Shown here one piece after another: positions 11,498 through 31,317 of a DNA stretch of 64,000 nt; within the stretch, counting starts at the first letter, position 1, and each line of letters begins with the position of its first letter. The position numbers were made by a program, and so were the translations under genes. Below the pieces are notes generated by a model. The model was not told the DNA's origin, did no database searches, and saw only the letters and a program-made list of their open reading frames with translations. The stretch comes from Brevundimonas mediterranea (GTDB lineage Bacteria; Pseudomonadota; Alphaproteobacteria; Caulobacterales; Caulobacteraceae), in assembly GCF_011064825.1 (NCBI RefSeq), contig NZ_CP048751.1, positions 62,001 through 126,000 on the forward strand, read 5' to 3'.

Positions 11498-11817
11498 AGG
11501 ATATCCTGCGCATCCTGGTCGCGCCCCTGGTCTGGCTGGCCAGCTTCAGCGCGGTCTACGGCCTGCACGGGCTGATCTGCGGACACGGGATCGGCGGGTC
11601 GGCTTTCGGCCTGGTCTCCGTCCCGCGCCTGCTGATGGGGGGCGCCTATGGGCTGGCGGTGCTGCTGCAGGTGGGTCTGATCCTGGCCCTTCACGCCGCG
11701 CGCTTCAGTTCGCCCTCGCCGTTCGTGCGCTTCGTCAGTCGCGCCACAGCCTGGGTGGGACTGATCGCGGCGGTCTGGACGCTGTTGCCGACGTTGGTCA
11801 CGACCTACTGCCTTTAA
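11494..11817 (+). CDS. Small three-helix membrane protein of the oxidase cluster
   Basis: A 107-residue hydrophobic protein starting at a GTG that overlaps the subunit I/III stop (GTGA). It has three predicted helices: residues about 5-25 (LVAPLVWLASFSAVYGLHGLI), 45-67 and 84-103. I do not recognise a family. Its tight coupling to the oxidase core suggests a small accessory subunit filling the place of subunit IV, but the sequence does not show this directly. Confidence 0.7.
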   Translation: MKDILRILVAPLVWLASFSAVYGLHGLICGHGIGGSAFGLVSVPRLLMGGAYGLAVLLQVGLILALHAARFSSPSPFVRFVSRATAWVGLIAAVWTLLPTLVTTYCL

Positions 11818-11846
11818 CGAGCCGACAGCGAGCGATAATCACCGAC

Positions 11847-11860
11847 TTGATCTGGATCAG
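11847..11860. promoter_or_regulatory. FNR/FixK box of the agmatine operon
   Basis: TTGATCTGGATCAG matches TTGAT-N4-ATCAA at nine of ten positions. It ends 54 bases before the start of the carbamoyltransferase gene, a spacing that fits a class II activator site near -41. Confidence 0.8.
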
Positions 11861-11914
11861 ATCGTCTCCCGACCTTGCCCCTAGTATCCAGGGCTCGAAG
11901 CGCGGGACAGGACG

Positions 11915-12973
11915 ATGCGTCATTTCATCGACACGCAAGATTTCACGAGCACCGAGCTCCGGTCGCTGCTGGAGCTGACCGGCCTGCTCAAGGCCGCCGA
12001 CAGACAGGGAGGCTTGCCGCCTCTGCTGGCGGGGGCCTCCCTCGGGATGATCTTCGAGGAGCCTTCGACCCGAACCCGTATCTCGTTCGAGGTCGCCATG
12101 ACGCGGCTCGGCGGGCACGCCCTCTATCTGAAGCCCGGGGAGATTCACCTCGGCGTTCGCGAGAGCATCAAGGACACCGCCCGGGTGATGAGCCGGATGG
12201 TCGACGCCATCGAGGCGCGGACCCTGAAACACGCCACGGTGACCGAATTGGCGCGCTGGGCGACCGTCCCGGTGATCAACGGCCTGACCGACTACAATCA
12301 CCCGACCCAGGTGCTGTGCGACGTCTTCACCATGATCGAGCACAGTCCGGCCGGGAAACGGCTCGAGGATTTGCGGGTCGCCTTCATCGGCGATGCGACC
12401 AATGTCTGCTCGTCGCTGATGATGATCTGCACCCGGCTGGGCCTGAACTTCACCCACTGCGCGCCCGCCCGCTACCAGGCCCCCGAGGCGTGGCAGGCGA
12501 TCGCCCGGGCCAACTGCGCTGCGTCCGGCGGCTCCTTCACGGTCGCCGAGGATCCGCAGGCCGCCGTGGCCGAGGCGGATTTCGTCTATACAGACCTGTG
12601 GTGGTGGGTCGGTCAGGAGGCCGAAATCCCTGAGCGCACCGCCGCCTTCATGCCTCGCTACCAGATCAATGAGGCCTTGCTGGCCCATGCCCCGGCGCAC
12701 GCCAAATTCATGCACTGCCTGCCCGCCTCGCGAGGCGTCGAGGTGACGGACGCCGTGATGGATGGCCCTCGCTCGATCATTTACGACCAGTCCGAGAACC
12801 GGCTGCACGCGGAAAAGGCCATTCTCGCCGCCTTCGTCGCCCCGCGCCTGAAGCCGCGGTCGGCCGCGCGCTCGCATTGGCATGCCGGGCGCATCGCAGA
12901 GTTTCTCAAGCACCATCCCCTCACCGAGCCGGCTTCGCCGGCTCTCCTGTCGGAGGTCGACCGCCATGTCTGA
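11915..12973 (+). CDS. aguB: Putrescine carbamoyltransferase (agmatine pathway)
   Basis: A 352-residue transcarbamylase. Carbamoyl-phosphate motifs are STRTR (residues 51-55) and HPTQ (129-132); the catalytic HCLP is at 267-270. Long stretches ([53 protein letters not shown]) look closer to Enterococcus putrescine carbamoyltransferase than to anabolic ornithine transcarbamylase. It would phosphorolyse carbamoylputrescine to putrescine and carbamoyl phosphate. The substrate loop here reads [11 protein letters not shown], matching neither the YGLY loop of the putrescine enzyme nor the SMG loop of the ornithine enzyme. The assignment to putrescine therefore leans on the adjacent agmatine deiminase. 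It is first in the operon, and its stop overlaps the next start by eight bases. Confidence 0.85.
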
Positions 12974-14420
12974 CGCTGTTTCCGCCACGCCGCGCCCGCG
13001 CTTCAAGCGCGTCATGGGCCTGTTCGACGTCACCCTGTTCACCGTCTGCGCCATCCTGGTGATCGACACCCTGGCCGCATCGGCGGCGATCGGCCCCTCG
13101 GCCCTGTCGTGGTGGGTGATCACCTTCCTGCTGTTCTTCATCCCCTACGGCCTGATCACCGCTGAACTGGGGGCGGCCTATCCCGGCGAGGGCGGCATCC
13201 AGCAATGGATCCGGCGCGCCTTCGGCGATCGCTGGGCGGCGCGCACGACCTGGTACTACTGGGTCAACGTCGCCCTGTGGATGCCGTCGGGATACATCCT
13301 GATGGCCGGAATGATCGCCCAGATCACCGGCGTCGAGATGAGCCTGTGGGGCAAGATCGGCATCGGGATCGGGGCCACCTGGCTGACCGTCCTGATCGGC
13401 GTCACCAGCCTGGCGACGGCCAAATGGGTGCCCAATCTGGGGGCGGTCATCAAGGCCGCCATCATGCTGCTGATCGGCGGTGCGGGGATCTACGTCCTGA
13501 CCACCCGGGGACCGGCCAACGACCTGTCCTGGCCGAGCCTGATCCCGCAATGGGGCGCCGGTCTCGCCTTCCTTCCGGTCATTGTCTACAATTTCATGGG
13601 CTTCGAACTGGTCTCGGGGGCCGGCGAAGAGATGCGCAACCCCGCCCGCGACGTGCCGATCGCGGTCATCACGGCCGGCCTGCTGATCTCGGGCTTCTAC
13701 CTGCTGGCGACCTTCGGCATTCTCGTGGCCCTGCCCGTCAAGGACATCGGCCTGATCGAAGGCCTGCTCGACACCCTGAGGTCGCTGATGGCCGGGGCTC
13801 CGGGGCTGGACGTGATCATCCCCCTCATCGGCGTCGGGGCGGTCTTCACCATCCTGGCCAATCTGGTCACCTGGTCCATGGGCGCCAACCGCACCGCCCA
13901 GGCCGCAGCGGCCGACGGCGAACTGCCGACCGTGTTCGGGCGGCTGCGCAAGTCCAACCAGACCCCGGTCGGAGCCTATCTCCTCACCGGCCTGGTCTCG
14001 ACCTTCGTGATCGTCGTCTATGGCGTCTTCGCCAGCAGCGCCGAGGACCTGTTCTGGTCGCTGTTCGCCTTCAGCTCGGTCATCTTCCTGCTGCCCTATC
14101 TGGTCCTGTTCCCCGCCTTCCTGCGTCTCCGAGCCCGCGACGCGGAGACGCCCCGTCCCTACCGGGTTCCCGGGGGCGCGATCGGGGCCAGCGTCATGGC
14201 GCTGGTCTGCACCCTGTTCATCGTTCAGGCGATCTTCTTCTTCCTCTGGGTTCCAGGACAGCCGGTGGATTGGCGCAAGACCGGCCCGATCCTGACCGGC
14301 GTGCTGCTGATCCTGGGGCTCGGCGAGATCGTCATCGGCGTGATGAAGGCCAACCGGCGCGGACCGCCCCCCCCGGCCCGGTCCGCTGAACCCACCCTCT
14401 CGTTTCCGAAAAGGTCCGCC
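12966..14420 (+). CDS. aguD: APC-family antiporter, probable agmatine/putrescine exchanger (frame continues into aguA)
   Basis: An APC-superfamily permease of about 485 residues with some twelve helices. The N-terminal helix is [33 protein letters not shown], split here as [12 protein letters not shown] and the part after it. Further motifs are [45 protein letters not shown] and RPYRVPGG. In the agmatine pathway the antiporter takes up agmatine and exports putrescine, and this gene sits in the expected position. The ATG at 12966 has a strong site (GGAGG) nine bases upstream. There is no stop codon before the deiminase: the frame runs without interruption to 15545. The end given here is only the base before the internal deiminase start. 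Adding one C to the C8 tract at 14367-14374 would create a stop at TGA 14387. Confidence 0.83.
14367..14374 (+). repeat. C8 homopolymer at the antiporter-deiminase junction
   Basis: Eight consecutive C residues lie in the hydrophilic tail between antiporter and deiminase. With eight Cs the two proteins are in one frame; with nine, the antiporter would end a few codons later and the deiminase would be a separate gene. Such tracts are prone both to slippage in the cell and to sequencing error. Confidence 0.9.
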
Positions 14421-15545
14421 ATGTCTGAGGTTCTCGACACCACGCCCCGCGCCGACGGGTTCCGAATGCCCGCCGAATGGGAGCCCCATATCGGTTGCTG
14501 GATGCTGTGGCCCGAACGGTCGGACAACTGGCGGGGCGGCGCAAAGCCGGCCCAGCACGCCTTCGCTGCGGTGGCGGCCGCGATCGCCGAAGGCGAGCCG
14601 GTGACGGTCTGCGTCTCGCCCGCCCAGTATGTGATCGCGCGCGCCATGCTCGCGCCGACCGTGCGGGTCGTGGAAATGACCAGCAACGACAGCTGGATCC
14701 GGGACTGCGGCCCGACCTTCGTCGTCAACGACCAGGGCGTGGTGCGCGGCGTCGACTGGAAATTCAACGCCTGGGGCGGGCTGACCGACGGCCTCTACTT
14801 CCCATGGGACCAGGACGATCTCGTCGGCGAGAAGGTCATCGAACTTGAGCGCGACGATCGCTACGCCCCGGACTTCGTGCTGGAGGGCGGCTCGATCGAC
14901 GTCGACGGCGAAGGAACGGTGCTCGCGACCGAGGAGTGTCTGCTGAACCCCAACCGCAATCCCGGCAAGACCCGTGAGGAGATCGAGCAGTCGCTGCGCG
15001 ACTACCTCGGCGTCGAAACCGTGCTGTGGCTGGAGCACGGCGTCTATCTCGACGAAACCGACGGCCACGTCGACAACATGTGCCGCTTCGTCGCTCCGGG
15101 CGAGGTGGTGCTGACCTGGACGGACGACCGCGCCGACCCGCAGTACGCCCGCTCGGCCGCGGCGCTGGAGCGCCTGGCCGGTTATCGCGACGCCCGCGGG
15201 CGTCCTCTGCAGGTGCACAAGCTGCACCAACCGGCGCCGGTGCTGATCACCGCTGAAGAGGCCGCCGGCGTCGACAAGGTGGCCGGCACCCTGCCGCGCG
15301 AGCCCGGCGACCGGATGGCGGCCTCCTATGCGAATTTCTACATCGCCAACGCGGTGGTGGTCGCGCCTGCCTTCGGTGATCCGCAGGACGCCCCCGCAAT
15401 GGAGACATTGGCCCGACTGTTCCCGAACCGGCGAATCCTCTCCGTGCCTGCGCGGGAGATCCTGTTGGGCGGGGGCAACATCCATTGCATCACCCAGCAG
15501 GAACCGCTGGGGGCGCGCGAGCGCGCCGCAAGTCGGCCTCGGTGA
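14421..15545 (+). CDS. aguA: Agmatine deiminase
   Basis: A 374-residue member of the guanidino-group-modifying family that converts agmatine to N-carbamoylputrescine and ammonia. Motifs seen are [54 protein letters not shown] with the catalytic His, and [13 protein letters not shown] with nucleophile Cys356. The ATG at 14421 follows AAAAGG, so independent initiation is plausible. The same frame is nevertheless open all the way from the antiporter start, so a membrane-tethered fusion is also possible. It is followed one base later by carbamate kinase. Confidence 0.94.
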
Positions 15546-15546
15546 C

Positions 15547-16449
15547 ATGCGGCGCGTGATCGCCGTGGGCGGCAACGCCCTGTTGCGCCGGGGCGAGCCG
15601 CTGTCGGCCGAAAATCAATGGCGCACCATGGCGGCGGCCGCCCCGGGGCTGGGCCGGGCGTGCGACGGTCACGAGATCGCACTGGTTCACGGCAACGGTC
15701 CCCAGATCGGCCTCCTCGCGCTGGAGGCGGGAGCCTATGAGGCGGCCCCTGGCTGGCCGCTCGACGTGCTAGGAGCGGAATCCCAGGGCATGGTCGGCTA
15801 TGTCATCGCCCAGGCGCTGCGCAACGCCCTTCCCGCCCGCGAGGTCGCCGTGGTGCTGACCCAGACGCGGGTGGATCCCGCCGATTCCGCCTTTCTTCGG
15901 CCGACCAAGCCGATCGGCCCGGTCTATGCGTCGGACGTGGCCAAGGCGTTGGGCGCGGCGCGGGGCTGGACCTTCGCGCCCGACGGCTCCGGACTGCGGC
16001 GCGTCGTCGCCTCGCCCACGCCGCTCGAGATCGCCGAGGCGGCGACCATCGCCCGGCTGGTGGGGGCCGGCGTGATCACCGTCTGCGCCGGCGGCGGCGG
16101 CGTTCCGGTCGCCGACGCCCCGGACGGGTCCCGCCATGGCGTCGAGGCCGTCATCGACAAGGATCTGGCGGCGGCCCTGCTGGCCGCGCGGCTGGACGCC
16201 GACGAACTGCTGATCCTCACCGATGTCGATGCGGTCTACCTCGACTGGGGGCGGCCCCATGCGCGGGCGGTTCGGGACGCCCGGGCGGAAGACCTGCTGG
16301 GCCGCGACTTCGCCGAGGGCTCGATGGCGCCCAAGGTGCGCGCCGCGTGCGGCTTTGCGCTTCAGACCGGGCGGCCCGCCCTGATCGGGACGCTGGACGA
16401 CATCGACGGCCTCCTGGCCGGCGCATCGGGCACCCGTATCCGACCCTGA
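15547..16449 (+). CDS. aguC: Carbamate kinase
   Basis: A 300-residue amino-acid-kinase-fold enzyme that transfers phosphate from carbamoyl phosphate to ADP, yielding ATP, CO2 and ammonia. Motifs are VIAVGGNALL at the N-terminus, VHGNGPQIG, GPVY, VCAGGGGVPV, EAVIDKDLAAALLA and LTDVDAVYLDWG, matching the ArcC/AguC family and its usual length. The start is one base after the deiminase stop. It completes the energy-yielding end of the agmatine pathway, giving one ATP per agmatine. The same enzyme could serve arginine catabolism, but no arginine deiminase is in the window. Confidence 0.93.
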   Translation: MRRVIAVGGNALLRRGEPLSAENQWRTMAAAAPGLGRACDGHEIALVHGNGPQIGLLALEAGAYEAAPGWPLDVLGAESQGMVGYVIAQALRNALPAREVAVVLTQTRVDPADSAFLRPTKPIGPVYASDVAKALGAARGWTFAPDGSGLRRVVASPTPLEIAEAATIARLVGAGVITVCAGGGGVPVADAPDGSRHGVEAVIDKDLAAALLAARLDADELLILTDVDAVYLDWGRPHARAVRDARAEDLLGRDFAEGSMAPKVRAACGFALQTGRPALIGTLDDIDGLLAGASGTRIRP

Positions 16450-16474
16450 CATCGTTCGGAATGGCGTCGCTGTG

Positions 16475-16494
16475 CGGCCGACGAAGCTCGGCCG
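16475..16494. terminator. Hairpin between convergent genes
   Basis: CGGCCGA-N6-TCGGCCG forms a perfect seven-base stem in the 49-base gap between carbamate kinase and the convergent efflux adaptor. It is well placed for a bidirectional terminator, although no T-run follows on either side. Confidence 0.5.
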
Positions 16495-16498
16495 GACG

Positions 16499-17701
16499 TC
16501 ACCCCGCGCGCCGGGCCTTCACCCGGACGCCGTCCCGCACCTGGTCCGAAGGAAAGACCACCAACGAATCGCCGTCGGCTGCGCCCTCCAGAATTTCCGC
16601 GTCCCGGTCCGTGATCGCCCCGACCTTGACCGGACGCAAACGCGCCCTGCCCTGCTCAATCCGGAACACGGCCCATCCTCCGCTGTCGCGCACCAGCGCA
16701 CCGGCCGGGGCGATCACCGCCGACGGGGTTTCGTGCAGGAACACCCGTCCCCAGACGCGATAGCCGGGCGCGAGCCCCGCGCGGCCGGATTCGGGACCAG
16801 TGAAACGCAGCATGACCCGCGTCCGCTGCTCCTCGATCCCCAGAGCAGATATCTTGGTGAAGGCCTGCGGCTCGACCAGCCGCACCTCGGCGGGAAGGTC
16901 TGTGGCGCCGCCCCAGTCATAGATTTCGGCCCGGTCGCCCGGCCGGATCCTGACGGCGTCCTGGGACAGGAATTCGATCTGCGCTTCCAGCCCTGCGGTC
17001 GCCCCGACCTCCACCAGCGGCGTGCCGGCGGCGACGTCGCGCTCGCTCTGCTGCAGCAGGGCCGTCACCACGCCGGATGTCGGGGACGTGATGGGGATCA
17101 GGCCGGCGCCCGCTGCTTCGGGACCGGTCAAAACCGCCTGGGCCGCCGCCACATCCGCGCGCCGGGCGAGAACCGCCGCGTCACCCGCCCGAAGCGCCTC
17201 GCGCGCGGATGTGGCCGCCGCTTGGGCGTTCTCCAGACCCTGGCGTGAGACGACGCCCTGCGCCGCCAGCGGCTCCAGCCGCGCCTGCGCCCTCGCCGCC
17301 CGGTCAGCCTCGGCCCTGAACTGAAGGCGCTGCGCCTCGGCCTGGGCCAGCATCGCGCGCGCAGCTGAAATGGAGGCCTCGGCCTGGGCGCGCATGCGTG
17401 GATCGAGAAAGGCAGAACGCGCGGGGCGCAGGGTCGCCACGACCGTGCGCCCCGCGATCACGGCGTCGCCCACCTCAAGCGGCAGCCGGGTCAGATGACC
17501 ACTGACCGGGGCCGACACGACATAGGCTTGACGAACGCGCGCCCATCCCTGGTCCGAGACGGTTTCCGCGATCGGCCCGCGATGCACGGCGGCAGCCTCC
17601 ACCGTGACCGGACGGGGCGCGAACAGGACCGCCAGAATCGCCGCGGCCGCGAGCGCCAGCCCCCCCATGACGATCCAGCGTGTGTTGCGTTTTGCGGCCA
17701 T
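16499..17701 (-). CDS. HlyD/MacA-type periplasmic adaptor of an ABC exporter
   Basis: A 400-residue membrane-fusion protein. An N-terminal anchor (WIVMGGLALAAAAILAVLF, residues about 9-27) is followed by a lipoyl half-motif (SAPVSGHLTRLPLEVGDAV). Next comes a long alanine-rich coiled coil (about residues 100-200), a second half-motif (SPTSGVVTALLQQSERDVAAGTP, given here in two overlapping parts) and a beta-barrel with PGYRVWGRVF. Such adaptors link an inner-membrane ABC permease to the outer membrane or assist lipoprotein or hydrophobic-compound export. It is the last gene of a three-gene operon, two bases after the permease stop. The exported substrate is unknown. Confidence 0.88.
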   Translation of the reverse strand: MAAKRNTRWIVMGGLALAAAAILAVLFAPRPVTVEAAAVHRGPIAETVSDQGWARVRQAYVVSAPVSGHLTRLPLEVGDAVIAGRTVVATLRPARSAFLDPRMRAQAEASISAARAMLAQAEAQRLQFRAEADRAARAQARLEPLAAQGVVSRQGLENAQAAATSAREALRAGDAAVLARRADVAAAQAVLTGPEAAGAGLIPITSPTSGVVTALLQQSERDVAAGTPLVEVGATAGLEAQIEFLSQDAVRIRPGDRAEIYDWGGATDLPAEVRLVEPQAFTKISALGIEEQRTRVMLRFTGPESGRAGLAPGYRVWGRVFLHETPSAVIAPAGALVRDSGGWAVFRIEQGRARLRPVKVGAITDRDAEILEGAADGDSLVVFPSDQVRDGVRVKARRAG

Positions 17702-20869: not shown

Positions 20870-20883
20870 TTGATGGAGGTCAA
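20870..20883. promoter_or_regulatory. FNR/FixK box of the ABC exporter operon
   Basis: TTGATGGAGGTCAA matches TTGAT-N4-ATCAA at nine of ten positions. A second, weaker match (GTGATCTGCGTCAA) lies at 20944-20957. The 268-base gap 20802-21069 holds no other feature that I can support. Confidence 0.7.
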
Positions 20884-21069
20884 CAGACGCGTCGGGGAGT
20901 GACTGCGGCGGGATAGGCCGGCGAAGGGCGGAGGCTGCGGCGCGTGATCTGCGTCAACAGGAGAGACGCTGCGCGGAACGCCGGTCTGACCCGAGCCCGC
21001 GCCCAACACGACCGGCGGATGCGGGGTCGGGCCAAACAGCGATGAGACGGGCTCCCGGGTGCGCAGAAC

Positions 21070-21690
21070 CTAAGAGGCCGGTCTGTGGCCGGCCGTCAGT
21101 CGGCGGGCGTGGCGATCGACCTCGGCGCAACATTCCTTAAACCGTATGGGAGCCAGTCCTGGCCCGATGGCGCCGAAGTTGTGACGATCCGCGATCTCCA
21201 GACCGGTCATGAGCGAGAGATGCTCATCGAACTGTTTATGCATGGCGGCCCAGGCGCCGCTGCGCTCCACCCAGTCCTGAGGCGCGCCGGACGAGGTGAA
21301 GCTGACAAGCTTGCGCCCGACCAGCAGAGGTTGATTGCCGCCGCGCTGGATCGGCGAATAGCCAAAGCCCATCCCGAAGACGCGATCCACATAGCCCTTC
21401 AGCATGGCCGGCGGCGCATTGAACCAGAGCGGATAGAACAGGGCGAAAACATTGGCGTCGCCGATCGCCTGGCGCTCGCGCACGACATCCGCCCGAGGCG
21501 CGTAACCGGGATGGTCCGGCATCTCCCGCGCGCGCATTCGCGGATCGAAGCCCAAACGATAGAGGTCGCGCACCTCCACGACCGCCCCGTCGGCGCGGCA
21601 CGCGTCCGCAAAGGCGGTCGCCATCGCCAATGTGAAGCTGCGGCGGCGAGGATGGGCGGCGATGACGGCGATGTGGAGGGACTGGGTCAT
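21070..21690 (-). CDS. NAD(P)H-dependent flavin oxidoreductase (Flavodoxin_2 family)
   Basis: A 206-residue protein of the NQO1/MdaB/KefF type. It has a beta-alpha start (LHIAVIAAHPRRRSFTLAMA), the FMN-binding FALFYPLWFNAPPAMLKGYV and DRVFGMGFGYSP. These enzymes reduce quinones or other electron acceptors by two electrons with NAD(P)H in the cytoplasm. A GTG at 21708 would add six residues. I chose ATG 21690 because the family starts there and GGTTGGA precedes it. An FNR/FixK box ends 33 bases upstream, so it probably belongs to the low-oxygen set. It is transcribed divergently from fixK. Confidence 0.88.
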   Translation of the reverse strand: MTQSLHIAVIAAHPRRRSFTLAMATAFADACRADGAVVEVRDLYRLGFDPRMRAREMPDHPGYAPRADVVRERQAIGDANVFALFYPLWFNAPPAMLKGYVDRVFGMGFGYSPIQRGGNQPLLVGRKLVSFTSSGAPQDWVERSGAWAAMHKQFDEHLSLMTGLEIADRHNFGAIGPGLAPIRFKECCAEVDRHARRLTAGHRPAS

Positions 21691-21723
21691 GATCCAACCA
21701 TGCCCCACCGACGGGCGGCGGCC

Positions 21724-21737
21724 TTGATCTCGCTCAA
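21724..21737. promoter_or_regulatory. FNR/FixK box upstream of the NAD(P)H oxidoreductase
   Basis: TTGATCTCGCTCAA matches nine of ten consensus bases and lies 34 bases before the oxidoreductase start. It also sits about 110 bases before the divergent fixK, so it could allow FixK to affect its own gene. Confidence 0.78.
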
Positions 21738-21845
21738 GGCGGGGCGTTTCGATCGCCTCCGTACCGACCCTTAGGGGCCGCTCCTGAATGTCGCGCAGAT
21801 TGGCGGCTCTCTACTCAGATCGGGTCAGACAGGGAGAACCAGACG

Positions 21846-22481
21846 ATGAGCGCCGCTGAAAGCTTCGCCTCCGCCCGTTCGATCGGCCACGACGCCTGGA
21901 TCGGCGCGGCTCGGATGAGTTTCGCCGAGGGCAAGGAGATTTACGCCCAGGACGAAGACGCCGACCTGATCTACCGCGTGATCCGCGGCGCGGTGCGGAC
22001 CTCCCACCTGCTGGCAGATGGACGCCGCCAGATCGGCGACTTCTACTACGAAGGCGAAGTGTTCGGCCTGGAGTTGTCGTCGGCGCACCGGTTCTCGGCG
22101 GAAGCCCTCACGTCTTGTGAAATCGCCATGATCCGTCGAACCTCCCCGGCGTCCGGCCGTGACGTCCAGGTCGACCGGCTGATGTGGGCGGCGGCGGGGT
22201 CGGAGCTGGCTCGGGCGCAGTCTCACATGCTGCTGCTTGGCCGGACCACTGCCGCCGAGAAGGTGGCCCGCTTCCTTCTGGACGTCCAGGCGCGGTGCTC
22301 GGGCGACGCGGCGATCCTGCCGATGAGCCGGCAGGACATGGCCGACTACCTCGGCCTGACCATCGAAACCGTCTCACGCATGCTGAGCCGGTTCCAATCG
22401 GAGGGCTTGATCCGTTTCGCCGGCGCGCGCCGTTTCAACGTCGTGCGGCCGACGAGCCTGGCCGCCAGCGCCGCATTCTGA
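21846..22481 (+). CDS. fixK: Crp/Fnr-family transcription factor, FixK type
   Basis: A 211-residue regulator: an N-terminal cyclic-nucleotide-fold domain, dimer helix, and C-terminal winged helix with [24 protein letters not shown]. The recognition helix keeps the E-T-V-S-R pattern of FNR, which contacts the TTGAT half-site. The N-terminal cysteines that bind the iron-sulphur cluster in FNR are absent, so it should not sense oxygen itself; FixK proteins are instead controlled through FixJ. It lies just upstream of fixLJ. Boxes matching its expected target are found throughout 11.8-35.7 kb. The start ATG at 21846 has AGGGAGA upstream. Confidence 0.92.
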
Positions 22482-22540
22482 ACCGCCGTGCCGCCAAACG
22501 TGCTATATCGCCCCCAAGACGTGGAGCACGGGAAGGGGTG

Positions 22541-24001
22541 TTGCAGATTCAGTCGTCGATCCTGCGTCACACCCCGGGCCGCTGGGGCTATGCGGTGGCG
22601 GTCTTCGGCGCCCTGATCGCCCTGCTCCTGCGTCTACTGGCTGATCCGGTCTTCAATGACCGAAGCTTCCTGCTGCTCAACGTCCCGGTGATGCTCGCGG
22701 CGGCCGCCTTGGGCGGACGAGGCCCGGCGCTACTGGCCGCAGGCTTGTGCCTGCTCGGGAGCGTCCTGGTCTTGGGTGAGGCTTTCTGGCTCGGCCCCGC
22801 CAACCGGATCGAGGCCTTGGTCTTCCTCGTCATGGGGCCGGCGATCGCAGTGGTGGGGGAGCGACTGTGGCGAGGCGCCCGCGAGGCCGAAAGCCGGCAG
22901 GCGCAACTGCAATCCATTCTGGAGACCGTGCCGGAGGCCATGATCGTCATCGACGAGGCCGGGATCATGCAGTCGTTCAGCCCGACGGCCATGCGCCTGT
23001 TCGGCTGGAGCGCCGAGGAAGCGATCGGCCGGAACGTCAGTCTTCTGATGCCTGAACCCTACCGCCACGAGCACGATGATTACCTCAGCCGCTACCAGAC
23101 CACGGGGGAACGTCGCATCATCGGCCTCGGCCGCATCATCGTCGGTCAGCGCAAGGACGGCTCCACCTTCCCGATGGAATTGGCGGTCGGCGAGGCGCGG
23201 ATCGGAACCGGCCGCTTCTTCACCGGATTCGTCCGGGACCTGACCGAACGGCGGGCGCAGGAGCGGCGGCTTCAGGAGTTGCAGTCCGAGTTGGTCCATG
23301 TCTCCCGGCTCACCGCCATGGGGGAGATGGCCACCGCCCTCGCTCACGAGCTGAATCAGCCCCTGTCCGCCATCGCCTCCTACACCATGGGGTCAACGAC
23401 CCTGCTCGCCTCGCCGAAGCCGGACCTGGACAAGGTGCGGAACGCCTTGTCCGCCGCCGGAGATCAAGCCCTGCGGGCCGGCGACATCATCAAGCGCCTG
23501 CGGGAGTTCGTCGCCAAGGGCGAGACCGAGCATGTGCTGGCGGACCCCGTGAAACTCATGGAGGAGGCGAGCGCCCTCGCCCTCGTGGGCGCCAAGGACC
23601 AGGGGATGCGGGTCGATCTCGCCTTTGACCGGAACACCGGCCCCGTCATCGTCGACAAGGTGCAGGTCCAGCAGGTCGCCCTAAACCTGATCCGCAACGC
23701 GATCGACGCCATGGGGGATGCGCCGAAAAGAGCGCTCCATATCGCCGTGGCGGAGGACGACGGCGATATGGTCCGCTTCACGGTCTCCGACACAGGGCCG
23801 GGCGTTCCGGAGACTGTTCTTGAGCGGCTGTTCCAGCCCTTTGTGACGACCAAGCCGGACGGCATGGGCATCGGCCTGTCGATCTGCCGCGGCATCATCA
23901 TGGCACACGGCGGCCGCATCTGGGCCGAGAATCCGCCGGAAGGCGGAGCCCGATTCATCTTCACCTTGCCGACAGCGGACCAGGAGACCGCAGATGAGTG
24001 A
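22541..24001 (+). CDS. fixL: Oxygen-sensing haem histidine kinase FixL
   Basis: A 486-residue kinase. About four membrane helices occupy residues 15-110. A haem PAS domain follows, in which the proximal ligand His178 is kept in EHDDYLSRY, together with the arginine of SRY and the distal arginine of IIGLGR, aligned by eye with Bradyrhizobium FixL His200, Arg206 and Arg220. The DHp domain has [14 protein letters not shown] (His269), followed by a HATPase domain ([18 protein letters not shown]). Oxygen bound to haem should block kinase activity. The start is uncertain: I chose TTG 22541 after GGAAGGGG; a GTG at 22538 is adjacent. The open frame continues upstream into fixK, which I treat as a shadow. 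It overlaps fixJ by eight bases. Confidence 0.93.
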
Positions 24002-24584
24002 CCGAATCCATGTCATCGACGATGACGACGGCGTTCGCCAGGGGCTGGCTTTTCTTCTTGAGGCCCACGGGCTCGACGCGCAGTTTCATGCTTCAGCGAC
24101 CGCCTTCCTGGCCGATGTCGAGGACCGGGGTGCCTGCATCGTGACGGACATCCGCATGCCGGAAATGACGGGTCTCGAACTCGTGAAACGGCTCCGCGAC
24201 GAGGGCGATCAGACGCCCGTGGTGGTGATCACCGGACACGGCGACGTACCCTTGGCGGTCCAGGCGATGAAGGCCGGCGTGCACGACTTCCTGGAGAAGC
24301 CCTTCAGCGACGCACACCTGGTCGACGCCGTCAGGTCGGCCCTCGCCGAGCGGCCGCAGCCGGACGCCGCCCGGCGCGAGGCCGAGGCCCGGCTGTCTTC
24401 GCTGTCGCCCCGCGAACGGGACGTCCTGGCCGGAGTCGTGGAGGGCAAGCTGAACAAGGTGATCGCCTTCGAACTGGACATCAGCCCGCGGACCGTCGAG
24501 ATTTATCGCGCCAATCTGATGAGCAAGACCGGCGCGCACAACATGGCGGAGCTGATGCGGATCGCCCTGGCCGCCGGCCTCTGA
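23994..24584 (+). CDS. fixJ: Response regulator FixJ
   Basis: A 196-residue regulator. The N-terminal receiver has the acidic cluster IDDDD, phospho-acceptor Asp52 in VTDIRMPEM, the switch threonine in VVITGHGD and Lys102 in LEKPF. The C-terminal LuxR-type helix-turn-helix reads [21 protein letters not shown] and [15 protein letters not shown]. Phosphorylated by FixL, FixJ activates fixK transcription in the relatives where it has been studied. Overlap with fixL implies coupled translation and matched amounts. Confidence 0.95.
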
Positions 24585-24585
24585 C

Positions 24586-24599
24586 TTGCGCCAGATCAA
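24586..24599. promoter_or_regulatory. Possible FNR/FixK box upstream of stand-alone receiver
   Basis: TTGCGCCAGATCAA matches eight of ten positions of the consensus and lies 52 bases before the receiver start, the same spacing as the stronger boxes here. Confidence 0.5.
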
Positions 24600-24650
24600 T
24601 GCGGTTGGACGGCAGACGCCTTAACCAAAGGCTTCACTTTGAAGCCGTCC

Positions 24651-25019
24651 ATGTCTCTATCTCCACCACCGGTCGTTCTGCTCGTTGAAGACGACCCCGC
24701 TGTCCGCGCCGCGCTCGCCTTCGCCCTCGAAACCAGGAATTTCACCGTCGTCCTGGCCGTCAACGCCGCCCATGCGCTGGCTCAGGATGTCGAATCCGCC
24801 GCTGCCCTGATCCTTGACCAGAATCTTCCCGATGTTCAGGGGCTCGAGCTTCTGTCCTTGCTCCGTCAGCAAGGGGTAGCGGGGCCTGCCGCCCTGATCA
24901 CGACTCACCCGCCCACGGACCTGGAGAACCGCGCGCGGGCCGCAGGCGTCCCGATCTTCGACAAGACCCGGCTTCATGATGGTCTGTTCGCCTGGCTCGC
25001 CGACGTGGTCCGGCCCTAG
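24651..25019 (+). CDS. Stand-alone receiver-domain protein (FixT-like position)
   Basis: A 122-residue single receiver domain with no output domain: acidic pocket VEDD, phospho-acceptor in LILDQNLPD, threonines in LITTHPP and lysine in IFDKTRL. It may act as a phosphate sink or as a kinase inhibitor. In Sinorhizobium and Caulobacter, FixT, a receiver-fold protein controlled by FixK, inhibits FixL. Its place directly after fixJ with a possible FixK box suggests the same negative feedback; sequence similarity to FixT could not be tested. ATG 24651 is preferred to a TTG at 24639. Confidence 0.8.
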   Translation: MSLSPPPVVLLVEDDPAVRAALAFALETRNFTVVLAVNAAHALAQDVESAAALILDQNLPDVQGLELLSLLRQQGVAGPAALITTHPPTDLENRARAAGVPIFDKTRLHDGLFAWLADVVRP

Positions 25020-25052
25020 TCCGGCGGATTTCGGGCCGCGCCTCGTCCGCGC

Positions 25053-25066
25053 ATGACTTGGATCAA
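25053..25066. promoter_or_regulatory. Possible FNR/FixK box upstream of small histidine kinase
   Basis: ATGACTTGGATCAA has a perfect ATCAA right half and three of five bases in the left half. It lies 53 bases before the kinase start, matching the spacing of neighbouring boxes. Confidence 0.5.
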
Positions 25067-25119
25067 ACGCCGACCTGCCGGCGAAGGGTAGCTTGGCCGA
25101 CAACCACAAGGAGATCGCC

Positions 25120-25716
25120 ATGCCGCTGCAAAGCCAGGACGCGCGCGACGCTGTTCGCGCGGCTCATCACCAGATCGGGAACAGCCTGCAGTCTGTCGTC
25201 AGCCTCCTGCGCCTCGAAGGGCGTTCGGCGCGGCCGGAAGCCGCCGGCGTCCTCCTGGAAGCAAGTCGCCGGGTCCAGACCGTCGTGCGTCTACACCAGC
25301 GCCTGCAGGAGAATGGCGGGACCGTCCGCCTCGACGATCTGCTCGGCGACGTCTGCAGGGACGTGGCGGAACTCGACGCGTTGGATCGGGACGCCGAGAT
25401 CCACATCGACGTCCACCCCTCCACGATGGACGCCCAGCGCGCCTCGGCTCTTGCGGCGGTCACCGCGGAATTGGTCGGCAACGCCCTGGAGCATAGCCTG
25501 GCGCGACGCTCCGGCCGGATCTCCGTCCTGCTGGCTCCTGCCGGAGAAAGCCTGATGCTGACCGTGACGGACGACGGAGAAGGCGCGGCCGGCGGTCGGC
25601 TGCCGGAAGGGTTCGGCCTGTCGCTGGTGCGCAGCCTGTGTCGTCAGTTGGAAGGCCAGTTCGCCTATGAGACAAGCGGTTCCGGAACGTGGGTCCGACT
25701 GGTCCTCCCTGTGTGA
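25120..25716 (+). CDS. Small sensorless histidine kinase (HisKA_2/HWE-like)
   Basis: A 198-residue protein consisting of little more than a dimerisation/phosphotransfer helix pair (RAAHHQIGNSLQSVVSLLRL, His near residue 17) and a HATPase domain (ELVGNALEHSL, TVTDDGEGA, EGFGLSLVRSLCRQL). It has no sensor or membrane segment, so the input must come from another protein. The preceding stand-alone receiver is an obvious candidate partner. The ATG at 25120 follows AAGGAG; an upstream TTG in frame lacks such a site. It is convergent with the next gene, seven bases apart. Confidence 0.82.
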   Translation: MPLQSQDARDAVRAAHHQIGNSLQSVVSLLRLEGRSARPEAAGVLLEASRRVQTVVRLHQRLQENGGTVRLDDLLGDVCRDVAELDALDRDAEIHIDVHPSTMDAQRASALAAVTAELVGNALEHSLARRSGRISVLLAPAGESLMLTVTDDGEGAAGGRLPEGFGLSLVRSLCRQLEGQFAYETSGSGTWVRLVLPV

Positions 25717-25723
25717 AGCCTGG

Positions 25724-26191
25724 CTAAACAGTATCCAGCCGGAAACGACGGGGCGCGCTGCGGCCGTCGCTCACCGTCACAAGACTCAGGCTTTCCGGCG
25801 AGAAACGGAAAAGCGCCACGGCGTTGGAGGCGGCGCCGAAGGCATGCTGATCGCGTCTGCGCTTCGCAACCAGGTCGTTGACGTGCGCGACGAGCTCGAG
25901 GTCGACAACCTCTGCGGCGCGCCCGGTCATGGCGACGCCCAAGGCGTCCGCTGAGTCGGCGCCGGACCGCACCACCGCCGCCGTCCGGTCGTCCGCCGCC
26001 AGACGCTCGGTCCGAAGACTGTCGCGCGCAGAGACGAAATAGAGGATCAGGCCTTCGTTCACATAGCCGACCGTCGCCGCCCAGGGGTAGCCGTCGGCGC
26101 CGTTGACCGCGACCGTCGCCAGCCTCTGGCTGTCAAGGAGGCGGACCGCGTGGCGAACCACCTCGGGCGGCGCGGGAAGACGCTCGGTCAC
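25724..26191 (-). CDS. Pyridoxamine 5'-phosphate oxidase-fold protein
   Basis: A 155-residue split-barrel flavin-binding-type protein with LLDSQRLATVAVNGADGYPWAA and VGYVNEGLILYFVSARDS at the N-terminus. PNPOx-like proteins bind FMN, F420 or haem and reduce or sequester small molecules; true PdxH is longer and carries motifs not seen here. The start overlaps the upstream cytochrome c stop by four bases, so the two are probably one operon and may share redox chemistry. Confidence 0.83.
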   Translation of the reverse strand: MTERLPAPPEVVRHAVRLLDSQRLATVAVNGADGYPWAATVGYVNEGLILYFVSARDSLRTERLAADDRTAAVVRSGADSADALGVAMTGRAAEVVDLELVAHVNDLVAKRRRDQHAFGAASNAVALFRFSPESLSLVTVSDGRSAPRRFRLDTV

Positions 26192-26547
26192 GGCGTGCGC
26201 TCCTCCGCCTGGAGCGATTCCAGATAGGCGATCAGGTCGTCGATCTCGCGCGCCCGGAACACATAGTCCGGCATCGACGGATGGTCGGCGATCGCGCCGT
26301 CGACGAAGCGGTTCTCAAGCTCCGACAGGGACCGTCGTCGCACGATGTCGCGAAAGGGCGGGGCCGTCTCCATCGGACTGGTTCCGGTCCGCGCCACGGC
26401 GTGGCAACTGGCGCAGGTCCGCCGCGCCACCCAGCCGCCCCGATCGGCCGCGTCCTGCTGGACCGTCCGCTCGACCGTCGGCTCCTGAGCGGCAGCCGCC
26501 GCTGCGAGATTGATCAACACCAGGGCGACAAGATGAACGCGGATCAT
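26188..26547 (-). CDS. Small periplasmic c-type cytochrome
   Basis: A 119-residue protein. The signal peptide (MIRVHLVALVLINLAAAAAAQ) ends near residue 21. A single haem-attachment site CASCH follows at about residues 46-50, and a probable axial Met lies in HPSMPDYVF. It should carry electrons in the periplasm. The ATG at 26547 is chosen because GGAGAA precedes it; a start at 26562 would put charge before the signal peptide. It lies 67 bases downstream of the small membrane-anchored protein and may be read from the FixK box at 26952. Confidence 0.9.
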   Translation of the reverse strand: MIRVHLVALVLINLAAAAAAQEPTVERTVQQDAADRGGWVARRTCASCHAVARTGTSPMETAPPFRDIVRRRSLSELENRFVDGAIADHPSMPDYVFRAREIDDLIAYLESLQAEERTP

Positions 26548-26614
26548 GGGCTGTTTCTCCAATTGTCAGCTTGGCTCTTGTCCGAGGCGGCGCGTGTTCG
26601 GGGGCGAGCGCGCC

Positions 26615-26902
26615 TCAGGCGTCCGGACGTCGGCTGCGCCAGGCGGCCCACCCCGCAAGGGCGGCGAAGGCGGTCAGACCAGCGAAAATCGCGCCGCTCG
26701 TCACCGGCCGCGCGCGCGCCTGATCGCCCAGATGCTCCGCGCCCGCCTCGACCTCGCGTCTCAGGCGCCGCATTTCCCTGCGCCCCGCCTTTCGCCAGCG
26801 CTTGGCGGACTTCCGCAAGGCCGCCGTTCGCTCATCGACGGCATCATGCAGACGGGCGGCGGCATCGTGGGGGTTATGGGTTTCAGACCGTTCATGGGAC
26901 AT
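26615..26902 (-). CDS. Small tail-anchored protein, ElaB/DUF883-like
   Basis: A 95-residue protein. The N-terminal two thirds is charged and helical (VDERTAALRKSAKRWRKAGR, RREMRRLRREVEAGAEHLGD), followed by a C-terminal membrane helix (SGAIFAGLTAFAALAGWAAW) and a basic tail. This resembles ElaB/YqjD-type tail-anchored proteins, which in E. coli tether ribosomes to the membrane in stationary phase; that link is by shape only. AAAGGAG precedes the ATG at 26902. A FixK box ends 50 bases upstream. Confidence 0.75.
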   Translation of the reverse strand: MSHERSETHNPHDAAARLHDAVDERTAALRKSAKRWRKAGRREMRRLRREVEAGAEHLGDQARARPVTSGAIFAGLTAFAALAGWAAWRSRRPDA

Positions 26903-26914
26903 GGAAAACTCCTT

Positions 26915-27175
26915 TCATCGGAGGATCATGGTCGTTTGGCCGACGATAACCTTGACCGATATCAAGATGCTCTGAAGCCCCCTCCATAGGCTCGCAGAAT
27001 ACCGGGCGAGCCGTTCGCGCCCCTCGATGACGAAGAAGCGCCAGGGCTGCTGGTTCATGCCGCTGGGCGCCCAGACGGCGTCCTCGACCACCCCCTGGAT
27101 GAGATCGCAACCGAGAGGGACGTGGCGGTAAAGACGGACCGCCCGGCGGCCTCGAATGGCGTCACGCGCGTCCAT
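26915..27175 (-). pseudogene. Truncated nitroreductase
   Basis: The first 60 or so residues are clearly nitroreductase family (DAIRGRRAVRLYRHVPL and EDAVWAPSGMNQQPWRFFVI, the FMN-binding N-terminus). The protein then changes after ERLARYSASLWRG and stops at residue 86, against about 180-220 for the family. The final codons run through the FixK box of the next gene, which suggests that a deletion removed the 3' two thirds and joined the stub to the neighbouring promoter. The start ATG at 27175 retains GGGAGG. It lies 23 bases after hsp20 and is probably co-transcribed, but it cannot form a complete enzyme. Confidence 0.8.
26952..26965. promoter_or_regulatory. FNR/FixK box upstream of the tail-anchored protein
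   Basis: TTGACCGATATCAA matches nine of ten consensus positions and lies 50 bases before the start at 26902. It overlaps the end of the truncated nitroreductase frame. Confidence 0.8.
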
Positions 27176-27198
27176 GACGCCCTCCCGGTCGCGACGGC

Positions 27199-27660
27199 CT
27201 AATGCGACGCCTGGATGGCGACGGTCCGTGTCGTCGCCTGGCCGTCCTTGGGCGCGGAAATCTTCAGCACGCCGTCCTTCATCACCGCAGTGATCTTGTC
27301 GGCGTCGACGCTGCGCGGCAGGACGATCGAGCGCGAGAAGGCGCCGTAGCTGCGCTCGGACAGGCGATAGTCCTTCTCCTCGACGGTCTTCTCCGCCTTC
27401 TTCTCGCCGCTGACGGTGAGCACCTCGTCCTCGACGGCGACCTTGACCTCCGCCTGGGTCAGGCCTGGAAGCTCGATGCTCAGCTCGAGGCCGTCCTTGG
27501 TCTCCGTAACGTCCATGCGCGGCGAGAGGGCGAGGTCGGAGCCGATGTTCCAGCCGGCGAAGCGGTCGAACAGTCGGTCGAATTCCCGCTGGATCGGCCC
27601 CAGGGGACCAGGAACGGCCGACCTGGCGGGAACGGAAGGCGATGTCGGGTGGGAGGCCAT
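27199..27660 (-). CDS. Hsp20/alpha-crystallin small heat-shock protein
   Basis: A 153-residue holdase chaperone. The N-terminal arm contains GPIQREFDRLFDRFAGWN. The alpha-crystallin domain runs from about residue 46 (SPRMDVTETKDGLELSIELP) through VEDEVLTVSGEKKAE and the conserved A-x-x-x-x-G-V-L motif (VMKDGVLKI). It binds unfolding proteins in the cytoplasm. The ATG at 27660 follows AAGGAG; a longer frame to 27735 would swallow the promoter box. A FixK box lies 62 bases upstream, placing it in the low-oxygen set as in other hypoxic regulons. Confidence 0.94.
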   Translation of the reverse strand: MASHPTSPSVPARSAVPGPLGPIQREFDRLFDRFAGWNIGSDLALSPRMDVTETKDGLELSIELPGLTQAEVKVAVEDEVLTVSGEKKAEKTVEEKDYRLSERSYGAFSRSIVLPRSVDADKITAVMKDGVLKISAPKDGQATTRTVAIQASH

Positions 27661-27721
27661 GAGAAAATCTCCTTGAATGGCTTGAACGCCACGACAATTC
27701 CCGATGCGCCGCCGACGCGTC

Positions 27722-27735
27722 TTGATCAGGGTCAA
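27722..27735. promoter_or_regulatory. FNR/FixK box of hsp20
   Basis: TTGATCAGGGTCAA matches nine of ten consensus positions. It sits between the stop of the upstream attachment-type gene and hsp20, 62 bases before the hsp20 start. Confidence 0.8.
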
Positions 27736-27736
27736 A

Positions 27737-28216
27737 TCAGCTCGAATATCCCGTCAGCGGCCCCAGCAGCCGCCCCCGGCCGAGACGCTCGAACCAGGTG
27801 TCGAGCGCATGGTCCGGTTCCCGGGTCAGGTCCTTGCCGATCGTGCGCGCCACAAGCGCGACCCGGCCGTCGCGGAACCGGCGTCGCAGCGGCCCGATCA
27901 GTTGCGGAGGCGCAGCCAGGACCACGCCCTGAAGCCCGCGCCGTCGCACCAGTTCCACGGCGCGGCTCGCGACAGTGGCGACGAAGGCCTCCTTGGCGGG
28001 GCGCAGATAATCCTCCCGTCCGACGGCGTGCCGCAGCCGCCCCACGCTGTTGAAGGTTCGGGCCGGCGGGCTGGCGCGGAGTTCGCGGCGCAGACGACGG
28101 AGCGAGGCCGCATTGTCGATGGCCTCCAGGGTGACGAAGGCGCCGGTCTCGACGTCCCGTTCCACGAACCGGGCGCGCCCGCCGTCGGCCAGCACGAAGA
28201 GCAGTCCCTTGCGCAT
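27737..28216 (-). CDS. Host-attachment-type protein (PF10116-like)
   Basis: A 159-residue protein beginning MRKGLLFVLADGGRARFVER. This is the pattern of the family named for an Agrobacterium protein required for attachment to host cells and structurally related to archaeal release-factor-like folds. A basic central region (RRLRRELRASPPARTF) and AKEAFVATVASRAVELVRRR follow. The actual biochemical role is unknown, and the name should not be taken as evidence of host contact. The ATG at 28216 follows GAGGT and lies seven bases after the DUF2267 gene, so the two form an operon under the box at 28711. Confidence 0.78.
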   Translation of the reverse strand: MRKGLLFVLADGGRARFVERDVETGAFVTLEAIDNAASLRRLRRELRASPPARTFNSVGRLRHAVGREDYLRPAKEAFVATVASRAVELVRRRGLQGVVLAAPPQLIGPLRRRFRDGRVALVARTIGKDLTREPDHALDTWFERLGRGRLLGPLTGYSS

Positions 28217-28223
28217 GACGACC

Positions 28224-28661
28224 TCACCTCCCCCCGGCTTCGACCGGCCATAGCGTGCGTAGCGCACCCGGCGAATGTCGAATGATCTTGTCGACCTCGC
28301 CCGGATCGAGCCGCTTGGCGGCGACCGCCAACACGGCCTGCGCGGCCGCAATCGTCTCGCGCGGAAACCCGGGCGGCAGCCGGCCTTCGACGTCGTCGAG
28401 GAAGGTCTTGAGGTCCCGCGAGCCGCCGGCCTCCTCAGGACGCCAGCCTTCCAGGACGAAACCTCGCATCAGCATCGGCAGCTGCGCCGACAGGCCAAGA
28501 ACCAACGCCAGCGGCAGCCGGTCGCGCAACCCCTGCAGCACGGCGCGCGTGGCCCCGTAGGCCTCGACCCGACTGCACGGCGGCAACCGCGTCTCGACGG
28601 CGCGCAGCCATTCATTCGTCTCCTGGACCGTCGTGTCGAAGACGGGAAGCCCGGTGCTCAT
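28224..28661 (-). CDS. DUF2267 protein
   Basis: A 145-residue soluble protein with two DUF2267-type helical units: ETNEWLRAVETRLP with YGATRAVLQGLRDRLPLALV, then LKTFLDDVEGRLPPGF with AAQAVLAVAAKRLDPGEVDKI. The GLSAQLPMLMRGFVLEGW segment between them is typical of the family. Function is unknown, but the family recurs in low-oxygen stress clusters with universal stress proteins. The ATG at 28661 follows AGGAGG. A FixK box lies 50 bases upstream. Confidence 0.82.
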   Translation of the reverse strand: MSTGLPVFDTTVQETNEWLRAVETRLPPCSRVEAYGATRAVLQGLRDRLPLALVLGLSAQLPMLMRGFVLEGWRPEEAGGSRDLKTFLDDVEGRLPPGFPRETIAAAQAVLAVAAKRLDPGEVDKIIRHSPGALRTLWPVEAGGR

Positions 28662-28710
28662 GACGTCCTCCTCCTTTCGTCGCAGCATCGACGCCTGCCG
28701 GACGGCCGCC

Positions 28711-28724
28711 TTGATCTCGGTCAA
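28711..28724. promoter_or_regulatory. FNR/FixK box of the DUF2267 operon
   Basis: TTGATCTCGGTCAA matches nine of ten consensus positions and ends 50 bases before the DUF2267 start. Confidence 0.8.
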
Positions 28725-28734
28725 GCGCCGTCGG

Positions 28735-30303: not shown

Positions 30304-30327
30304 GCGCAGGATCTTTCCATCACGGCG

Positions 30328-31182
30328 TCAGTGCGCCAGGACCAGGCTCGGCCCGTCCGCGTCCTTCAGGAAGGCCCGCGTGGCGCCGCCGAACATAGTC
30401 TCGCGCAGCCGCGAATGACCGTAGGCGCCCGCGACCAGCAGGCCCGAACGGCGGGAGCGCGCGGCGCCGACCAGGGCCGGCCCCTCCTCACCCTCCACCA
30501 GAACCGCGACCCCTTCGCCGACGCCATGGGCCTTCAGATAGGCGTTGAGCCGATCGACATCCGGGTCAGCTGTGGACCTGTCGAGGCCGGACACGCACTG
30601 CAGGATATGAATCTCCGACGCCATGGCCAGAAGCGGCAGGGCGGCGCGGACGGCCCGCCCCGCCTGCGGGCTGCCGTCCCAGGCGATGGCGGCCGGGCCG
30701 TCCAGCCTGGCTGGATCGCCACGGCCGACCAGGACCGGCGCGCGCAGGTCGAGCAGGATCTGGGCGAGTGCGTCGCGCCCCGCGCCGGCCGCATAGGCCT
30801 GTCCCATGACGACCAGGTCGCACAGGGCCAGGATGCGCGTCAGCGCCAGGGCCGGCCGCAGCCCGCGCTCCAGCACCGCCATCCGGGGGGCGCCGTCGCC
30901 GGCGCCGAAGACCACGTCATGGGCGGCTGCGGCACGGGCGGCCGTCGCCTCGATGCGGCGCTGCAGTTCGAGCTGCGCCCGGGCCAATTCGTCGATCGCC
31001 TCCTGCGACAAGGTGGAACCGAGGGTCAATCCCAGCGTCACCATGTCCACGGCCATGTCCGGATAGACCGGCAGAACCTCCACACTCCCCTCGTGCTGGG
31101 CAGCCAGGGCCGCCGCGAAGGCCAAGGTCTCGCCGTCGCCAGCGCCCCCGTCCGTGATCGCCACCAAGCGCTTCAGGCTCAT
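30328..31182 (-). CDS. Universal stress protein, tandem Usp domains
   Basis: A 284-residue protein with two UspA-fold halves. The second ends in VAGAYGHSRLRETMFGG, close to the ATP-binding G-x2-G-x9-G pattern; the first half is degenerate. Tandem Usp proteins are induced by oxygen limitation in several bacteria. I chose the ATG at 31182 after AGGGAGAAG over one at 31209. A FixK box ends 54 bases upstream and is paired with a second box serving the divergent Usp gene. Confidence 0.92.
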   Translation of the reverse strand: MSLKRLVAITDGGAGDGETLAFAAALAAQHEGSVEVLPVYPDMAVDMVTLGLTLGSTLSQEAIDELARAQLELQRRIEATAARAAAAHDVVFGAGDGAPRMAVLERGLRPALALTRILALCDLVVMGQAYAAGAGRDALAQILLDLRAPVLVGRGDPARLDGPAAIAWDGSPQAGRAVRAALPLLAMASEIHILQCVSGLDRSTADPDVDRLNAYLKAHGVGEGVAVLVEGEEGPALVGAARSRRSGLLVAGAYGHSRLRETMFGGATRAFLKDADGPSLVLAH

Positions 31183-31235
31183 GTTCCGCTTCTCCCTGAT
31201 GACCGACACCCTGGGCGCGCCCTCCGGCCTCCACC

Positions 31236-31249
31236 TTGATCAATGTCAA
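31236..31249. promoter_or_regulatory. FNR/FixK box of the leftward Usp gene
   Basis: TTGATCAATGTCAA matches nine of ten positions and lies 54 bases before the start at 31182. Confidence 0.85.
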
Positions 31250-31257
31250 TCGGCCGC

Positions 31258-31271
31258 TTGACCCTGATCAA
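31258..31271. promoter_or_regulatory. FNR/FixK box of the rightward Usp gene
   Basis: TTGACCCTGATCAA matches nine of ten positions and ends 46 bases before the start at 31318. Its centre is 22 bases from the previous box, about two helical turns, so both dimers would lie on the same DNA face. Confidence 0.85.
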
Positions 31272-31317
31272 GGCCCCCTCCCCGCAAGGCGTCATCCTCC
31301 TGTCCAAGGAGAACGCC

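Follow-up and report, generated by a model that had tools for sequence, protein, structure and literature searches.

What does an operon for agmatine breakdown do in an alphaproteobacterium, and does oxygen control it? The question arose from a stretch of 64,000 nucleotides of Brevundimonas mediterranea (contig NZ_CP048751.1, positions 62,001 to 126,000 of the forward strand), called hereafter the window, to whose numbering all coordinates refer unless another source is named. Four coding regions were found on its + strand between 11915 and 16449, in the order putrescine carbamoyltransferase (PTC), APC-family antiporter, agmatine deiminase (AguA) and carbamate kinase. This is the content and the order (aguBDAC) of an agmatine deiminase (AgDI) operon, and an FNR/FixK-type box lies just upstream of the first gene. 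Our answer is that the operon is probably catabolic, feeding substrate-level phosphorylation when oxygen is limiting, and started by an activator of the FixK/FNR type.

Gene families were assigned with NCBIfam profiles and their curated cut-offs, and the nearest solved structures by sequence comparison with the PDB. The PTC gene (aguB/ptcA type, 11915–12973, 352 aa) scored 525.4 bits on TIGR04384, above the cut-off of 500, and the best PDB match of its product was 4a8h, the PTC of Enterococcus faecalis (PMC3282769). The antiporter gene, in the AguD position (12966–14420), overlaps it by 8 bases and encodes APC-type permease domains (AA_permease_2); its nearest solved structures are of the GadC and AdiC types, and its identity to Bacillota AguD proteins from agu loci is 33–39%. 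Gene context makes agmatine/putrescine its most likely substrate. Its frame remains open into the deiminase gene (14421–15545, 374 aa if its own ATG is used), whose product scored 582 bits on TIGR03380 (cut-off 381.8). The best PDB match of AguA was the agmatine deiminase 2jer, with which its GGGNIHC segment aligns; we take the cysteine of this segment to be catalytic. The carbamate kinase (15547–16449, 300 aa, PDB match 8crv) scored 404 bits on NF009008, one of four carbamate kinase models, above the cut-off of 361. The gene order proposed in the initial annotation was therefore borne out by family matches, and its coordinates were right. It had also counted four genes: there are four coding regions, in three open frames, as the antiporter and the deiminase share one. 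Altogether, these matches give strong sequence support to a pathway that is already known.

In this pathway, the APC protein would most likely bring in agmatine in exchange for putrescine. AguA would convert agmatine to N-carbamoylputrescine and ammonia, PTC would use phosphate to split the former into putrescine and carbamoyl phosphate, and the carbamate kinase would phosphorylate ADP with carbamoyl phosphate, giving ATP, CO2 and ammonia. When oxygen is scarce, a FixK/FNR-type activator bound at 11847–11860 would switch on transcription from a start point some 35 bp further downstream. This activator may be FixK or the FNR-like protein of the genome; the nearest candidate belongs to a FixL-FixJ-FixK set encoded 5.4 kb downstream of the operon.

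The host genome was inspected for genes of anaerobic life. A narG-like gene (recognised by translation, without a family search), nrdD, nrdG and hemN were present, from which the host can probably live anaerobically, together with moaA. The genome gave no match to arcA, and the host appears to be a facultative anaerobe that lacks this gene. A second AguA gene, paired with one for N-carbamoylputrescine amidase, lies at 1153757–1155597 of the host contig. Relatives of AguA (E≤1e-30) occur in 130 of 131 genomes of the genus, and the operon type in a single one of the 131, that of the window (next best E 3.6e-66). In wider samples, close PTC relatives were present in 3 of 385 genomes of the class and 2 of 398 of the phylum, the host genome being counted. 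A protein search returned 2246 PTC relatives at E≤1e-80; the names attached to the best 120 of these include Caulobacter, Sphingopyxis, Asticcacaulis, Polymorphobacter, Hyphomicrobium and Arenimonas. All four operon genes were also found together at locus L148.

The operon could instead provide nitrogen or putrescine, or serve in pH defence, rather than yield energy; its main signal would then be agmatine or acid, as it is in streptococci and enterococci, and the box would do no more than adjust its expression. The reactions do release ammonia, whatever their purpose, and in E. faecalis agmatine is described as inducing the operon via AguR, with CcpA and the mannose phosphotransferase system as repressors (PMC3796520). 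However, no regulator gene was recognised beside the operon among the open reading frames (ORFs) of the window (AguR itself was not searched for), and some of the relatives share the box. Moreover, the genome already holds the AguA-amidase pair for putrescine and nitrogen, so that PTC and carbamate kinase would add mainly ATP. We consider a role in supply or pH defence unlikely on these grounds, and the energy-yielding, oxygen-linked role the better account.

Evidence for the oxygen link starts from the box itself, TTGATctggATCAG (also given as TTGATCTGGATCAG), at 11847–11860 on the + strand. From its centre to the PTC start codon is about 61 bp, and a single one of the 10 fixed positions of TTGATN4ATCAA is mismatched. 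A −10-like hexamer, TAGTAT (11882–11887, + strand), follows 21 bases after it; with 4 of 6 matches it is weak alone. Class II FNR-type promoters show this spacing. Nine sites with at most one mismatch to TTGATN4ATCAA were found in the window, whereas 100 shuffles gave 0.36 on average and never more than 2.

Conservation of the box was examined in the 200 bp upstream of PTC at 32 alphaproteobacterial loci, with starts extrapolated from alignments. These were the window and three more loci of its own family, f1 (4 of 390 genomes, E≤1e-90), and loci from 25 of 40 genomes of family f11 and 3 of 60 of family f174 (both E≤1e-110). A box with at most one mismatch was present at 10 of the 32 loci and a perfect one at five, whereas shuffling gave means of 0.51 and 0.015, respectively (with at most one mismatch, the largest count in 200 rounds was 3). 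Of 748 background windows of equal size from the same loci, 17 contained such a site, six of these perfect. The box was found at 3/4 loci of f1, 3/3 of f174 and 4/25 of f11, where six further loci have in common a two-mismatch site, TTGCGN4ATCAA, at 75–77 bp. Sixteen loci, these six among them, were also inspected for a −10-like hexamer: at 11 of the 16, one agreeing with TATAAT at four or more of its six positions followed 20–22 bases after the box, a result that is only suggestive because the best of eight registers was chosen, while the 5.7% background corresponds to three registers. Outside the alphaproteobacterial set, a site of this stringency was seen at 2 of 28 PTC loci (one of the 28, L031, was scanned at a wrong upstream length).

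Could the box be an accident or a relic, and the operon be read through from upstream? A cytochrome oxidase gene (ending at 11497) and a small ORF (ending at 11817, 97 bp before PTC) closely precede the operon on its own strand, a search of 11600–16700 gave no sigma-70-type promoter, and the box of the operon carries one mismatch. However, 10 boxes at 32 loci against 0.51 expected from shuffles make chance an unlikely origin, boxes recur 40–88 bp upstream in other families, and none of 23 longer relative loci matches the upstream oxidase gene. Read-through past a meaningless box is accordingly improbable, to a higher degree than the supply and defence roles.

Genes of the Fix type were found in the same window. 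The FixK-type regulator (21846–22481, + strand, 211 aa), a member of the Crp/Fnr family, scored above the cut-off on HTH_Crp_2, and a box of its own, TTGATctcgCTCAA (21724–21737, + strand), is centred about 115 bp before its start codon. A FixL-type sensor kinase follows at 22184–24001 (+ strand), the first start codon of its frame overlapping fixK, so that the real start is probably later, and then the response regulator FixJ (23994–24584, + strand; 267 bits on NF006900, cut-off 255). At L168:8326-9060, a Crp/Fnr regulator was noted whose N-terminal part has a cysteine cluster like that of oxygen-sensing FNR; it scored below the cut-offs of the FnrL and Fnr models. In a survey of four Caulobacterales genomes FixK alone was reported, and FixK of this order to control 21 operons of redox function (PMC4999443); the words agmatine, putrescine, carbamoyltransferase and carbamate kinase have no occurrence in the main text of that paper. 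The oxygen-type control site that the initial annotation placed in an alphaproteobacterial setting is supported by the conservation of the box, by these three genes and by the stress genes next to them, and the proposed link to oxygen has good comparative support among sequences.

Specificity of the carbamoyltransferase was assessed from residues. PTCs are reported to differ from ornithine enzymes by a loop (Y/W)(G/W)(V/L/I)X replacing SMG, by absence of a lysine two residues before STRT, and by a C-terminal extension whose signature is weakly diagnostic (PMC3282769). The window PTC has WWVG as its loop, Glu two residues before STRT (Gln in the E. faecalis PTC), and the extension IAEFL at residues 327–331, which fits (L/f/v/i)XX(F/Y/L/M/v)(L/i/m). 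A review warns that putative PTCs with varied residues still await proof (PMC4581275). The score on TIGR04384, the loop, the missing lysine and the extension agree with the claim of an agmatine-pathway enzyme. That it is an ornithine enzyme in a disguised arginine-type pathway has very little chance of being right: the ornithine models TIGR00658 (370 bits) and NF001986 (363 bits) also passed their cut-offs, but TIGR04384 scored far higher, WWVG and the lack of lysine are unlike ornithine enzymes, the genome has no arcA match, and the operon deiminase is of the agmatine type.

Several observations weigh against the catabolic, oxygen-controlled function proposed here. The box of the operon is imperfect, its last A being G; 22 of the 32 alphaproteobacterial loci, including L096 of the same family, have no box at one mismatch or less; and these loci are related, hence not 32 independent tests, with start codons extrapolated as described. 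The carbamate kinase fell below the cut-offs of TIGR00746 (347 versus 358.25, 11 bits short), NF006926 (351 versus 416) and NF009007 (228 versus 266). The antiporter exceeded no NCBIfam cut-off for a transporter equivalog, and its best-scoring models were GadC types. No SpeA-type arginine decarboxylase was found above cut-off in the genome (other decarboxylase types were not searched for), so that agmatine may have to come from outside. The best NCBIfam model of FixK, the Caulobacter FixK model NF050806, gave 190 bits (cut-off 300), and FixL gave 521 bits on NF041777 over residues 236–601 (cut-off 850). Finally, the common frame of AguD and AguA could alter either protein.

Where did the operon come from? 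The initial annotation had named joint transfer from Firmicutes as a point to be checked by phylogeny. A PTC tree was built from 59 rows, leaving out L005, L096 and L149, which have a stop inside the translated match, and replacing several loci with short flanks by longer ones of the same place. The 30 alphaproteobacterial rows formed one side of a branch (Shimodaira–Hasegawa-like approximate likelihood ratio test, SH-aLRT, 88, not starred) and belonged to a set of 34 rows (98, starred) with Chloroflexota, Actinomycetota and Marinimicrobia; most Bacillota rows were placed elsewhere, and L036, a Clostridiales row on a long branch, was sister to the PTC set containing the alphaproteobacteria. 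A tree forced to group the 30 alphaproteobacterial with 18 Bacillota-type rows was 218 log units worse (approximately unbiased test, p-AU 1.6e-37); these rows were grouped after the first tree had been seen, the hypothesis itself having been set beforehand. In the AguA tree, the window and the remaining operon copies from its order made up a group of 7 rows (97, starred) within a mostly proteobacterial set of 54 rows (96, starred) that includes Pseudomonas, and all 16 Bacillota operon-copy rows were in the opposite half. Identities of the window PTC to Bacillota versions at the compared loci were 45–52%, these versions being mostly in a separate clade. For the carbamate kinase they were 46–65% to alphaproteobacterial and 36–41% to Bacillota copies, and its nearest named relatives are proteobacterial, including Caulobacter and Pseudoxanthomonas. 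Joint transfer from Firmicutes is thus not supported: grouping of PTC with Bacillota was rejected, and AguA sits mostly among proteobacterial rows. The operon looks rather as if it had been assembled, or long resident, outside Firmicutes and had moved among Proteobacteria, because its genomic neighbours differ between loci.

The most unusual element of the locus is the frame shared by transporter and enzyme, which is real in the sequence and may yield a fusion protein. Antiporter and AguA form one stop-free frame of 859 codons from the antiporter ATG (ORF 12882–15545). The deiminase part has its own ATG at 14421 with AAAAGG upstream, so that it may be translated separately. The start regions of the two genes (12942–12995 and 14397–14450) are alike, with 70% identity over 54 bases, and both contain GCCATGTCTGA. 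A run of eight C lies near the junction, where length errors are possible. An assembly error as the cause of the shared frame is less likely, since the database protein P0241, from another assembly (525 aa, 99% identity), reads through the same junction. Two differences were seen by eye before the end of P0241, and its last residues resemble sequencing adapter, which suggests that it comes from a truncated contig.

Fifty further loci at which the antiporter gene precedes that of AguA (49 places, L003 and L095 being one contig) were surveyed, and none showed an AguD-AguA fusion. Four (L138, L139, L151 and L154) were first flagged as fused, because the matches ran past a stop; on inspection, a stop precedes AguA in all of them. 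At the remaining 46, the end of the antiporter frame either precedes AguA (32 gaps) or falls within its first 61 bases (14 overlaps). Both domains occur in one chain in at least eight database proteins among the matches listed (120 of 220), namely P0252–P0254, P0256, P0259, P0260, P0262 and P0263, each with one member and from the 'ena' source. A frame-shifted stretch was seen by eye in P0259, and these eight are therefore not taken as proof of fusion. APC transporters generally have both termini on the cytoplasmic side, which makes an AguD-AguA fusion topologically possible.

Genomic surroundings of the fix genes were also inspected. The genome contains 23 perfect palindromic boxes (two for a reversed control pattern), seven of which fall within 20870–35714. 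This stretch also carries genes for Hsp20 (27199–27735, − strand), a DUF2267 protein (28224–28751, −), a beta-CASP hydrolase (28735–30303, −), a universal stress protein (Usp; 30328–31209, −), a P-type cation ATPase (31428–34697, +) and a second Usp (34687–35511, −). The best NCBIfam model of the beta-CASP protein is the type VII CRISPR protein Cas14, at 297 against a cut-off of 800; the protein is probably a relative of a stress-linked RNA nuclease. At three f174 loci (L137–L139), the operon is followed by an opposite-strand carbamate kinase gene, a Crp/Fnr-type gene whose product is 29–30% identical to the window FixK, and a P-type ATPase gene; L137 has additional Usp and beta-CASP matches. 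At L094, an Hsp20 gene lies upstream on the opposite strand, with a box in between. Of the 23 loci compared, which reach about 10 kb or less on either side of PTC, the remaining 19 showed no such full cluster, with ATPase or FixJ-like matches at some of them. Further downstream, the window contains phosphate-related genes (35828–50980: a purple acid phosphatase, a PhoD-like phosphatase and two TonB receptors) and type II secretion genes (54354–61132: proteins J, G and E, and secretin D).

A bolder reading, which we offer tentatively and consider doubtful, is that in Caulobacterales and Parvibaculum-like bacteria agmatine fermentation joined the low-oxygen regulon of FixLJ-FixK within a movable survival module of stress proteins and cation ATPase and that, in this species, a single antiporter-deiminase protein additionally hands agmatine to the enzyme. 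If oxygen control of the operon is real, bacteria running short of oxygen would have an energy reserve in agmatine, and FixK regulons would cover a fermentation that yields ATP besides respiratory genes. Agmatine fermentation, studied mainly in fermenting Gram-positives, would extend to respiring alphaproteobacteria and be linked to their oxygen sensor.

Among known systems, the Anr-controlled arcDABC genes of Pseudomonas resemble the window operon in combining a deiminase, a carbamoyltransferase, a carbamate kinase and an antiporter under an FNR-type regulator. They differ in using arginine as substrate and a deiminase of another family. The aguBA genes of Pseudomonas aeruginosa (PMC514541) and the AguA-amidase pair of this genome also begin with agmatine deiminase, but since the amidase hydrolyses carbamoylputrescine, no ATP is gained. 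PTCs of Caulobacter sp. and Parvibaculum lavamentivorans, close relatives of the window PTC, were earlier recognised by sequence, in an account that, in the text consulted, does not mention oxygen control (Polo et al. 2012, PMC3282769). As for physiology, all four agu genes of Lactobacillus buchneri are reported to drop to 0.35–0.39-fold in air, the text consulted naming no regulator (PMC4521753), and Eggerthella lenta can use agmatine in place of arginine to gain energy (PMC10234575). A literature search covering titles and abstract openings in a limited collection of papers returned no report of FNR or FixK control of agu genes. The closest counterparts are the aguBDAC operons of E. faecalis, Streptococcus mutans and lactobacilli, which have the same four functions in the same order. 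In contrast to these, the window operon has an FNR/FixK-type box, a shared AguD-AguA frame and no recognised AguR (for which no search was made), its PTC belongs to a mostly separate clade, and its nearest named carbamate kinases are proteobacterial. It is a known pathway of gut and food bacteria in a new regulatory setting, the putative oxygen switch being the less familiar part.

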